A stretch of DNA of 64,000 nt from positions 2,170,001 through 2,234,000 of the forward strand of contig NZ_CP119520.1 in assembly GCF_029223865.1 (NCBI RefSeq). Direction: 5' to 3'. Under the pieces are notes generated by a model, which did no database searches, was not told where the DNA came from, and saw nothing but the letters and a program-made list of their open reading frames with translations. The stretch is from Telluria mixta. GTDB taxonomy: Bacteria; Pseudomonadota; Gammaproteobacteria; Burkholderiales; Burkholderiaceae_D. Shown here one piece after another: positions 60,927 to 64,000 of the stretch; positions within the stretch are counted from its first letter, which is position 1, and the number at the start of each line of letters is the position of its first letter. Made by a program: the position numbers and the translations under genes.

Positions 60927-62009
60927 ATGCCACAATTTGCCCCGCTCCAGAACGACACCTTCCTGCGTGCGCTGCTGCGCCAGCCGACGGATTACACGCC
61001 GGTGTGGCTGATGCGCCAGGCGGGGCGCTACCTGCCGGAATACCGCGCCACGCGCGCGAAAGCCGGTTCGTTCCTGGGCCTGGCCAAGAATCCGGACTTC
61101 GCCACCGAAGTCACGCTGCAGCCGATCGACCGCTATCCGCTGGACGCGTCGATCCTGTTCTCGGACATTCTCACCGTGCCGGACGCGATGGGCCTGGGTC
61201 TGTATTTCGAGGACGGCGAGGGCCCGAAATTCGAGCGCACCGTGCGCACGGAAAGCGATGTCGCCGCCCTGCGCGTGCCCGACATGGCCTCGCTGCAGTA
61301 CGTGTTCGACGCCGTCACGTCGATCCGCACGGCGCTGAACGGCCGGGTGCCGCTGATCGGCTTTTCCGGCAGCCCGTGGACCCTGGCGTGCTACATGGTC
61401 GAAGGCGGCGGTTCGCGCGAATTCCACACCATCAAAAAGATGCTGTATTCGCGTCCGGACCTGATGCACCGCATCCTGGAGACCAATGCGGAAGCGGTCG
61501 CGCAATACCTGAACGCCCAGATCGACGCGGGCGCGCAGGCCGTCATGATCTTCGACTCGTGGGGCGGCGCGCTGGCCGACGGCGCTTATCAACAGTTCTC
61601 GCTCGCGTACATGGAGAAGGTCGTCGCGAAGCTGCAGCGCGAGAAGGATGGCGTGCGCATCCCGGCCATCGTGTTCACGAAGGGCGGCGGCCTGTGGCTG
61701 GACGCAATGGCCGATATCGGCGCCGACGCGCTGGGCCTGGACTGGACCGTCAACCTGGGCCGCGCCCGCGCGCAGGTGGGCGACCGCGTCGCCCTGCAGG
61801 GCAACCTCGATCCGGCCATCCTGTTCGCCGGTCCGGACCAGATTCGCACCGAGGTGGAAAAGGCGCTGGCCAGCTACGGCACGCCGTCCGCGGGCCACGG
61901 CCATGTGTTCAACCTGGGCCACGGCATCTCGCAATTCACCCCGCCGGAATCCGTGACGGCGATGGTCGACGCGGTCCACGACTTCAGCCGTCGCCAGCGC
62001 GCCGCCTGA
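60927..62009 (+). CDS. hemE: Uroporphyrinogen decarboxylase
   Basis: The 360-residue haem-pathway enzyme that decarboxylates uroporphyrinogen III to coproporphyrinogen III. Motifs: [34 protein letters not shown] and [17 protein letters not shown]. The ATG at 60927 matches the family start; the open frame from 60483 is the shadow of the S9 gene. It is followed by a large AT-rich spacer before priA. Confidence 0.97.
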
Positions 62010-62010
62010 G

Positions 62011-62552
62011 GTATCCACAACAGCCGTGCTGCATTTCAGCAGCACGGTGAGCAGGCAATCCACACTTATTCACAAAAAAACGAACGGGGGTTGCGTGGAC
62101 TGTGGAAATGTACAGTAGCCATCCCCATGTGGTAAGTGACTGATTTTAATGGATTTACTGCCGGGTCAAGGGTGGCCGGGTGAGGCGCTCTCAAGGGAGT
62201 GACCAGTTATCCACCGAAGCTGTCAGCCCATTGTTCACAAAGTTATGCACAGATTCTGTGAATAATCTGGAAAAGTGCTTGGTTTACCGTGGTTTACAGA
62301 TTTTCTTCAAGTGTTGTATCAAGATTATGCTGCACTGCGCTCAAGTTTTACATCCGGAAAGGCACAGTTATGCACAGAAGCGTTCAAGCGATGGGATATT
62401 TCACTGGCTCAAAGTTGGAAAACGTAAGCCATTGAATTATAAGGGAAAATTTTGAACTGCACATAGAGAATTTCCTAACGTTTTGCGCTAGCGTAAACCT
62501 TCTCCACGGTCAACTTTTCCATTTTCCACAAAGTTTTCCACAGTTTTCCACA
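62011..62552. other. DnaA-box cluster in the AT-rich hemE-priA spacer
   Basis: Eleven DnaA-box-like 9-mers lie in about 540 bp of AT-rich DNA. Exact TTATNCACA matches: 62066 (+), 62243 (+), 62257 (-) and 62368 (+). Exact TTTTCCACA: 62522, 62534 and 62544 (+). One-mismatch sites: 62011 (GTATCCACA), 62101 (-, ATTTCCACA), 62207 (TTATCCACC) and 62231 (TTGTTCACA). A direct repeat GGTTTAC is at 62281 and 62291, and a one-mismatch IHF-type sequence starts at 62317. This density is like that of replication origins or DnaA-titration loci. Confidence 0.72.
62024..62047 (+). terminator. Hairpin after hemE
   Basis: Perfect 9-bp inverted repeat CCGTGCTGC / GCAGCACGG around a 6-nt loop, 14 bp after the hemE stop. 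No T-run follows, so it is a weak terminator or an RNA-stabilising stem. Confidence 0.5.
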
Positions 62553-62573
62553 GCTTCTCGACAAGGTATCGGA

Positions 62574-64000
62574 TTGTCCCACTGCATCCTGCAAATCGCG
62601 CTCGACACGCCGCTCGACAGCCTGTTCGACTACCGCTGGGCATGCGAACCCGGCAGCGAGCCGGAAGTCGGGCAACTGGCGCTCGTGAACTTCGGCCGGC
62701 GCGAGGCGGTCGGGCTGATCGTTGCCGTCAAGCACGAGACGGACGTCCCCGCCGACAAGCTGAAGGATGCGCTCGCCGTGCGCAGCCAGCTCTCCCCGCT
62801 GCCGGAGCGGTGGATCGCGCTGGCGCGCTTTGCCGCCGCCTATTACCACCGGCCGCTGGGCGAGGTGGCGCTGCCCGGCCTGCCGAAGAATGTGCGGCTG
62901 TCGACGACGGTGGCGCTGGACCGCGCGCTGAAAAAGCTGGCCAAGCTGCCGGACGCGCACGATCCGACGCCCGCCGACATGCCGGTATTGAACGCGGCCC
63001 AGCAGCAGGCGGCGGACGCCATCGGCGGCGCGCAGGGATTCAGCCCGCTGCTGCTGTACGGCGTCACGGGCAGCGGCAAGACCGAGGTCTACCTGCAGGC
63101 CTGTGCCCAGGTACTCGCGCGCGACCAGGATGCGCAGATCCTGATCCTGGTCCCCGAGATCAACCTGACGCCGCAGCTGGAAGCGAACATCCGCGCACGC
63201 TTTCCCGGCGTGATGCTGGCGACGCTGCACAGCAGCCTGTCCGAAGGCGAGCGCATGCTGCACTGGCTGGCCGCGCACACGGGCCGCGCGCGCATCGTGC
63301 TGGGCACACGGCTGGCGATTCTCGCGTCGCTGCCGAACCTGAAAATGATCGTCATCGACGAGGAACACGACCCGTCGTACAAGCAGCAGGAAGGCCTGCG
63401 CTATTCCGCGCGCGACCTGGCCGTGTGGCGCGCGCGCCAGCTCGGCATCCCCATCGTGCTGGGCTCCGCGACGCCGTCGCTGGAAAGCTGGCACCACGCG
63501 CAGACGGGCCGCTACCGCAGGCTCGAACTGCGCGAGCGCGCCGTGCGCGATGCCGTGCTCCCGCGCGTCAAACTCGTCGACATGGAGCGCGACAAGCCGA
63601 AGGAAGGCCTCACGTCGGCCCTGATGCAGGCGCTGCGCCTGCGCATGGAACGGGGAGAACAATCGCTGCTGTTCCTGAACCGGCGCGGCTATGCGCCCGT
63701 GCTGTGCTGCGAAGCGTGCGGCTGGATCAGCAACTGCACGCGCTGCACCGCGTTCATGGTGCTGCACCGGCCGGAGCGCAGACTCCGCTGCCACCACTGC
63801 TCGCTCGAGATGCGTATTCCGCACGCGTGCCCGACCTGCGGCAATATCGACCTTCAGCCGTTGGGCCGCGGCACGCAGCGCATCGAGGAAGGCCTGCAGG
63901 CGTTGTTCCCGGACGCACGCATCCTGCGCATCGACGCCGACTCCACGCGCCGCAAGGGCAGCGCGCAAGAGGCGTTCGACACGGTGCACCGGGGCGACGT
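62574..64000 (+). CDS. priA: Primosomal protein N' (PriA helicase), N-terminal part
   Basis: The first 475 residues of PriA, the helicase that restarts collapsed replication forks; the gene runs off the window end. Visible parts: N-terminal 3'-DNA-binding domain (LDTPLDSLFDYRW), Walker A YGVTGSGKTEVYLQA, DExH box VIDEEHDPSYKQ, and the zinc-binding cysteines in CCEACGWISNCTRC and RCHHCSLEMR with CPTCG. The frame has no ATG; TTG at 62574 (giving SHCILQIAL) follows AAGG at 7 bases and fits the family. Three DnaA-type boxes end 22 bp upstream of this start. Confidence 0.93.
   Translation, partial: MSHCILQIALDTPLDSLFDYRWACEPGSEPEVGQLALVNFGRREAVGLIVAVKHETDVPADKLKDALAVRSQLSPLPERWIALARFAAAYYHRPLGEVALPGLPKNVRLSTTVALDRALKKLAKLPDAHDPTPADMPVLNAAQQQAADAIGGAQGFSPLLLYGVTGSGKTEVYLQACAQVLARDQDAQILILVPEINLTPQLEANIRARFPGVMLATLHSSLSEGERMLHWLAAHTGRARIVLGTRLAILASLPNLKMIVIDEEHDPSYKQQEGLRYSARDLAVWRARQLGIPIVLGSATPSLESWHHAQTGRYRRLELRERAVRDAVLPRVKLVDMERDKPKEGLTSALMQALRLRMERGEQSLLFLNRRGYAPVLCCEACGWISNCTRCTAFMVLHRPERRLRCHHCSLEMRIPHACPTCGNIDLQPLGRGTQRIEEGLQALFPDARILRIDADSTRRKGSAQEAFDTVHRGD

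Follow-up and report, generated by a model that had tools for sequence, protein, structure and literature searches.

A conserved DnaA-box element between hemE and priA of Telluria mixta is probably of the DARS type

The cluster of DnaA boxes in the spacer between hemE and priA of Telluria mixta is probably a DARS-type DnaA-regulatory element and not an origin, a function that we infer from sequence. The cluster lies in the window, a stretch of 64,000 nucleotides that was analysed as bases 2,170,001-2,234,000 of the 7,444,617-base single-contig T. mixta genome. The original prediction had named the flanking genes hemE and priA, and both profile scores exceed their cut-offs. Two units stand between these genes, each with the same layout, i.e., an outer forward DnaA box followed by an IHF-type site and then an inner group of boxes. 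The core of unit 1 has no mismatch to the DARS-type pattern, in which boxes III, II, and I start at 0(+), 12(+), and 26(-), and unit 2 is a second, degenerate tandem copy that has lost box I. The features are as follows (positions in the window).

60927 to 62009, + strand: hemE (uroporphyrinogen decarboxylase), left neighbour; TIGR01464, 426 bits, cut-off 303 (profile match given from 60915; start taken from the ORF)
62010 to 62573, no strand: hemE-priA spacer of 564 bp, containing the entire element; delimited from the sequence
62066 to 62074, + strand: unit 1 outer DnaA box TTATTCACA, at -165 from box III
62133 to 62145, + strand: unit 1 IHF-type site TAAGTGACTGATT, one mismatch to YAANNNNTTGATW, at -98 from box III
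62231 to 62239, + strand: unit 1 core, box III position, TTGTTCACA
62243 to 62251, + strand: unit 1 core, box II position, TTATGCACA
62257 to 62265, - strand: unit 1 core, box I position, TTATTCACA, head-to-head with box II
62368 to 62376, + strand: unit 2 outer DnaA box TTATGCACA
62425 to 62437, + strand: unit 2 IHF-type site TAAGCCATTGAAT, one mismatch
62522 to 62552, + strand: unit 2 degenerate core, TTTTCCACA at 62522, 62534, and 62544, with the box I position lacking a reversed box
62574 to 64000, + strand: priA (replication restart helicase), continuing beyond the window end; TIGR00595, 386 bits, cut-off 230

The seven exact DnaA boxes that had been predicted for the spacer were all recovered as matches to TTWTNCACA, at 62066(+), 62243(+), 62257(-), 62368(+), 62522(+), 62534(+), and 62544(+), four of them being TTATNCACA and three TTTTCCACA. 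The four predicted one-mismatch sites were also present (GTATCCACA at 62011, TTATCCACC at 62207, TTGTTCACA at 62231, and ATTTCCACA at 62101-62109 on the minus strand, the fourth read by eye). As stated in the same prediction, the spacer is AT-rich (55% A+T, in a window with 65% G+C) and has an IHF site near the boxes; there are two such sites, at 62133-62145 and 62425-62437, with one mismatch each. No dinucleotide shuffle of the spacer out of 3000 contained seven boxes (mean, 0.11; maximum, 3). The box density is also rare in the part of the genome examined: among 140 windows of 564 bp with at least 48% A+T, taken from 1.54 Mb of T. mixta, the best lay on the spacer, with six boxes, and elsewhere every window with more than one box fell in one of two clusters, located at 131 kb and 2.009 Mb. 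An Rfam search of 61500-63000 gave no match, and a scan of the spacer, which is a weak test for promoters, found no sigma-70-like promoter and no terminator-like site.

Conservation of the boxes in relatives had been set beforehand as a test of the prediction, and it was found in all measurable spacers. The best 80 of 516 candidate hemE relatives were taken; two were dropped, having no priA match in the locus, and each of the 78 measurable spacers (497-981 bp) holds boxes, with 1-8 TTWTNCACA matches and, when up to one mismatch to TTATCCACA is allowed, 3-11 sites. When 20 sequences (the window and 19 relatives) were aligned, invariant columns fell mostly on the boxes and IHF-type sites, with few elsewhere. 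Twenty further loci were sampled across the order, one from the same genus, two from the same family, and 17 from other families. In 17 of these, priA adjoins hemE, and all 17 spacers have at least two boxes; in the remaining three, the 4 kb gave no priA match and the 700 bp past hemE held no box.

The window, the 78 relatives, and the 17 order-sampled spacers make up a set of 96, mostly from one family, in which the spacing of the sites could be compared. The inner box III-II pair was found in 94 of the 96 spacers (122 pairs in total), and an IHF-type site (at most one mismatch) starts at -96 to -98 from box III in 116 of the 122 pairs, representing 89 spacers. For the 17 order-sampled spacers, the pair was present in 16 and an IHF-type site at -96 to -99 in 13. 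Outer forward boxes in the 122-pair set start at -162 to -165 (84), -151 to -154 (26), or -172 to -178 (10), positions that differ by steps of about one helical turn. The full core was present within three mismatches in 64 of the 96 spacers, and 31 of the 32 with more than three mismatches retain boxes III and II, with box I gone. When 176 spacings were compared, (12,14) fitted most spacers at up to three mismatches (64/96), with 26 for the runner-up. The Fis consensus, which is loose, showed no common offset (at best 4 of the 122 pairs). We regard the box cluster as a conserved DNA element that is probably regulatory.

Genomes were then searched with the 35-base core pattern, using the reversed pattern as a control. 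Allowing three mismatches, the T. mixta genome has nine core matches in three loci, compared to none for the control: one in the spacer (no mismatch), one each at 4.628 and 4.631 Mb (one mismatch per core), and, at 131 kb, an array of six (two to three mismatches). No other match in the genome is as perfect as the spacer core, which however helped shape the pattern. The two cores at 4.63 Mb (genome positions 4,628,354 and 4,630,870) flank a PcrA/UvrD-like helicase gene that scores below the family cut-offs; both carry a site at -97 that fits the IHF consensus exactly, and one of the two also has an outer box, at -161, which the other lacks. The six-core array (genome positions 130,898-131,823) lies between a TolQ/ExbB-like gene, likewise below cut-offs, and xseA; just one of its six units has a site near -97, and four of the six have an opposite-strand site. 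Clusters of TTATNCACA similar in size to this array were seen in Janthinobacterium LM6 (1.791 Mb) and CG3 (2.986 Mb).

Within the order Burkholderiales, 59 of 80 genomes had the core at up to two mismatches (101 matches listed; control, 0). Among the matches listed for these 80 genomes, 17 from 16 genomes lay no more than 1.5 kb downstream of hemE, 15 of them on the hemE strand, where about 0.05 would be expected. In a class-wide draw at the same threshold, the core was found in 88 of 106 genomes (two from Burkholderiales) and the control in none. Forty loci were hand-picked by core alone, the 20 class loci (19 genomes) all being perfect core matches. Seventeen of the 20 class loci have an IHF-type site at -98 to -100; the 20 order loci, all chosen away from hemE, have one at -95 to -98 in 12 cases and none there in the other eight (background, 0.0005-0.0008 per position). 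Nineteen class loci carry an outer forward TTAT[AGT]CACA box (-175 to -181), but only three order loci carry an outer forward box near -165. It was also noted, without statistics, that DARS-type cores recur beside or near repair or restart genes (priA, uvrB, mutH, xseA, and the PcrA/UvrD-like gene) in E. coli, T. mixta, and the class-wide loci.

Because the core, IHF site, and outer box keep a set order over many families and at more than one locus per genome, we read the element as a control site for the nucleotide state of DnaA, and DARS is likelier than datA because the core is the defining part of DARS, even though the outer arm resembles datA. On the DARS reading, ADP-DnaA would assemble on the core, with the molecules on boxes II and I in head-to-head contact, and bending of the DNA by IHF would allow DnaA on the outer box to reach the core. 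ADP would then be released, and the freed DnaA could take up ATP and become able to fire oriC again. The T. mixta genome contains ihfA and hda, and with Hda present, hydrolysis of ATP-DnaA that needs a recharging step is plausible. The element would bind several DnaA molecules and hence cause some titration alongside, and it may affect priA transcription. Several observations speak against DARS: 32 of the 96 spacers have more than three mismatches to the core, unit 2 is without box I, part of the order loci are without the IHF-type site or the outer box, the element lies 222 kb from the probable oriC, unlike DARS1 and DARS2, the IHF offset exceeds that of the best DARS2 match by about one turn, no Fis consensus recurs, and the outer arm of unit 1 (-165, -98) is closer to datA (-162, -97) than to DARS2. 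Of the options originally put forward (origin, titration, or promoter control), the notion of a non-origin DnaA locus is supported, but the inner layout matches DARS, which had not been named, better than datA or plain titration.

A datA-type site, where bending by IHF would let ATP-DnaA oligomerize on the outer and inner boxes and hydrolyse its ATP, so that DnaA is shut off after initiation, seems unlikely. It was our first reading of the spacer, based on the box-IHF-box distances, and was demoted because the core layout fits DARS better. In E. coli datA, the outer forward box 2 lies at -162 and the IHF site at -97 from box 3, with order and strands as in unit 1 and distances 1-3 bp off. According to the available parts of the literature, the spacings of these datA sites matter for datA function (PMC4585315), and the low-affinity box 7 is named essential (PMC5742627). 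Early replication near oriC would presumably also suit a shut-off site. However, no core 0(+), 12(+), 26(-) was found in the 5-kb E. coli datA region at up to five mismatches, the inner pair of datA runs + and then - at +12, unlike unit 1 with its second + box at 12, and the part that is conserved class-wide is the DARS-type core.

The prediction had also pointed to hemE as the neighbour. This was seen only within the order; class-wide, no HemE match was found in 20 stretches of 4.5 kb, and the link is to priA. Each of these stretches surrounds a core, with 11 genomes represented, and eight of the cores are followed by priA, every one of them in a different genome. We located priA in 76 of the 80 core-carrying class genomes searched, out of 88 carriers, and for 71 of them a core was also among those listed. 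Considering the listed cores, 30 of these 71 genomes have one upstream of priA in the same orientation, a fraction that refers to core carriers and not to the class. The linked cores lie 142-1861 bp ahead of the matched priA stretch, and the strand agrees in 30 of 30. Elements resembling that of the spacer are accordingly found ahead of priA in many other bacterial families. Such an arrangement, together with the final three boxes of the spacer lying 22-52 bp ahead of the priA start, would suit a DnaA-controlled regulatory region in which DnaA and IHF set priA transcription by DnaA level. We nevertheless consider this explanation rather improbable, given that the module also occurs apart from priA, at 4.63 Mb and in the 20 order loci chosen away from hemE, none of whose 901-bp stretches matched PriA, and that the spacer has no sigma-70-like promoter by the weak test used. 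Going back to the DARS-type reading, we tentatively propose that an outer box, an IHF site, and a DARS core before priA could be an ancient feature of the class Gammaproteobacteria (as GTDB defines it, Burkholderiales included) that serves to recharge DnaA, tying ATP-DnaA regeneration, and perhaps priA expression, to one locus.

That the spacer is oriC appears very unlikely. Its box density, A+T content, and hemE neighbour are in favour, and the oriC of Caulobacter lies beside hemE, but the plain origin is disfavoured because the skew minimum and the triplet-run boxes are at another box cluster, B (genome positions 2,008,824-2,010,191), 222 kb from the spacer. B is built of three units in tandem, each combining TTATCCACA with a GC-rich gap and a CTA/TTA triplet run similar to TTTACTATCACTA, and thereby looks like the box and DnaA-trio of the basal unwinding system at oriC. 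The spacer is like such an origin in its dense DnaA boxes and A+T richness, whereas the triplet run is found at B and not in the T. mixta spacer. B lies between a GMC-oxidoreductase-like and an MTA/SAH-nucleosidase-like gene (named by eye) and has counterparts in Janthinobacterium LM6 and CG3. A scan of T. mixta 1.83-2.43 Mb for a box plus triplet run, with a pattern built from B, gave matches only at B and none in the spacer; the stretches of LM6 and CG3 that were scanned did not reach their spacers. Three of these units were found in LM6, at its B, and CG3 has one by scan and two more by eye.

Cumulative GC skew over 604 kb of contiguous T. mixta sequence reached its minimum (-2079) at the end of bin 2,000,001-2,010,000, the deepest point coinciding with B, and a shallower low was seen at 2.28 Mb (-1927). 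Sampled skew alone had suggested a minimum at 2.23-2.30 Mb, which contiguous sequence shifted to 2.010 Mb. The minimum in LM6 is also at its B (within contiguous 180-420 kb), and a flat low in CG3 (4.33-4.47 Mb) contains B (4.404 Mb) and excludes the spacer (4.585 Mb). Gene-strand-corrected skew between B and the spacer was +0.009 in T. mixta and +0.008 in CG3 (both intervals include 0), and in LM6 it was -0.030 over 180-355 kb (interval excludes 0), negative as expected if B is the origin; all three signs fit B, one of them significantly. KOPS between the two clusters favour B in T. mixta (13/20), but they favour the spacer in LM6 (20/29, stretches sampled) and CG3 (9/9). The plain origin option is disfavoured on the basis of skew minima (T. 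mixta and LM6) and triplet-run boxes, yet KOPS point the opposite way in two of three genomes. The earlier remark that the operons to the left are head-on to a leftward fork from the spacer agrees with the spacer not being the origin. We regard B as a likelier origin than the spacer, probable but not proven, which for Oxalobacteraceae would be away from dnaA and hemE. dnaA is at 2.346 Mb, 113 kb to the right of the spacer, with just two boxes (at most one mismatch) near its start.

Polar 8-mers assigned 38 of 38 chunks correctly in leave-one-out analysis (7-mers, 37; 6-mers, 36). KOPS and 8-mer polarity switch at 2.077-2.090 Mb in T. mixta, at approximately 0.21-0.28 Mb in LM6, and at 4.52 Mb in CG3 (the latter two by eye), always between B and the spacer and at non-orthologous places. 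Neither B nor the spacer sits on the KOPS switch in LM6 or CG3 (by eye), and the T. mixta switch is not at the spacer. A dif-like site was found at 5.999 Mb, with two mismatches to what we take to be the dif consensus, and no parS within two mismatches was found in 404 kb of T. mixta. Around 74 kb after glmS (genome 2.028-2.103 Mb) had no matches in the compared LM6 and CG3 stretches, whose own intervals are about 65 and 43 kb; this is a variable region near the probable origin. Several degenerate ATCCACAG repeats were observed in the spacer between glmU and an Lrp-like gene (by eye; genome positions 2,025,501-2,025,755).

Finally, a passive DnaA titration cluster with no catalytic role is highly improbable, since seven boxes and three to four near-matches in 0.56 kb would serve it well, but titration alone would not account for an outer box, an IHF site, and a core that keep their order, strand, and spacing in many families.

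The claim, made in a review, that DARS-like sequences occur in many proteobacteria is credited there to its reference 91, presumably Fujimitsu et al. in 2009. In the available part of that review, sequences resembling DARS1 and DARS2 are described as conserved in many proteobacteria (PMC10380432). Excerpts of other work state that the DARS2 spacing is conserved in beta- or gammaproteobacteria near E. coli (PMC5742627) and, in a paper cited by the latter, that the DARS2 core is conserved specifically among gammaproteobacteria (PMC4245941). In the accessible portions of the open-licence literature searched, we found no DARS in Burkholderiales or beside priA, no three-part geometry, and no tandem copy. 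DARS is thus a kind already known, and the variant and its place beside priA look new within that literature. If the element works as proposed, the DARS system, described in E. coli in the portions of the papers found, would be open to study in Burkholderiales and many families at a defined locus by priA; the simple spacing rule would make such sites easy to locate in genomes, and control of DnaA activity would be linked with a replication-restart gene. The analysis also points to a testable oriC for Oxalobacteraceae, apart from dnaA and hemE.

The closest known systems to the DARS-type element are E. coli DARS1 and DARS2, whose cores have boxes III, II, and I at 0(+), 12(+), and 26(-), identical to unit 1. 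As described in the available excerpts, DARS1 and DARS2 have boxes I-III in common, equally spaced and with box I reversed (PMC5742627), and ADP-DnaA bound head-to-head on boxes I and II releases ADP (PMC5742627, PMC8682772). The likeness to DARS2 (rppH-mutH) extends in kind to an IHF-type site upstream on the same strand, with one mismatch, at -87, compared to about one turn further out (-98) in unit 1. On the other hand, the outer box of the spacer is forward at -165, while the nearest strong one of DARS2 is reverse at -185, and the spacer also differs from DARS2 in having no recurrent Fis consensus, in adjoining priA, and in its degenerate tandem copy. DARS1 (bioD-uvrB), unlike the spacer, has no IHF-type site (at most one mismatch) within 400 bp. 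The E. coli cores are at bioD-uvrB and rppH-mutH instead of before priA, and the 12 kb around priA in E. coli K-12 contain no core within four mismatches. The spacer element, 222 kb from the probable oriC, also differs in place from DARS1 and DARS2, which, in the text available, are placed between oriC and terC, DARS1 at 0.81 Mb and DARS2 at 2.97 Mb (PMC5742627).
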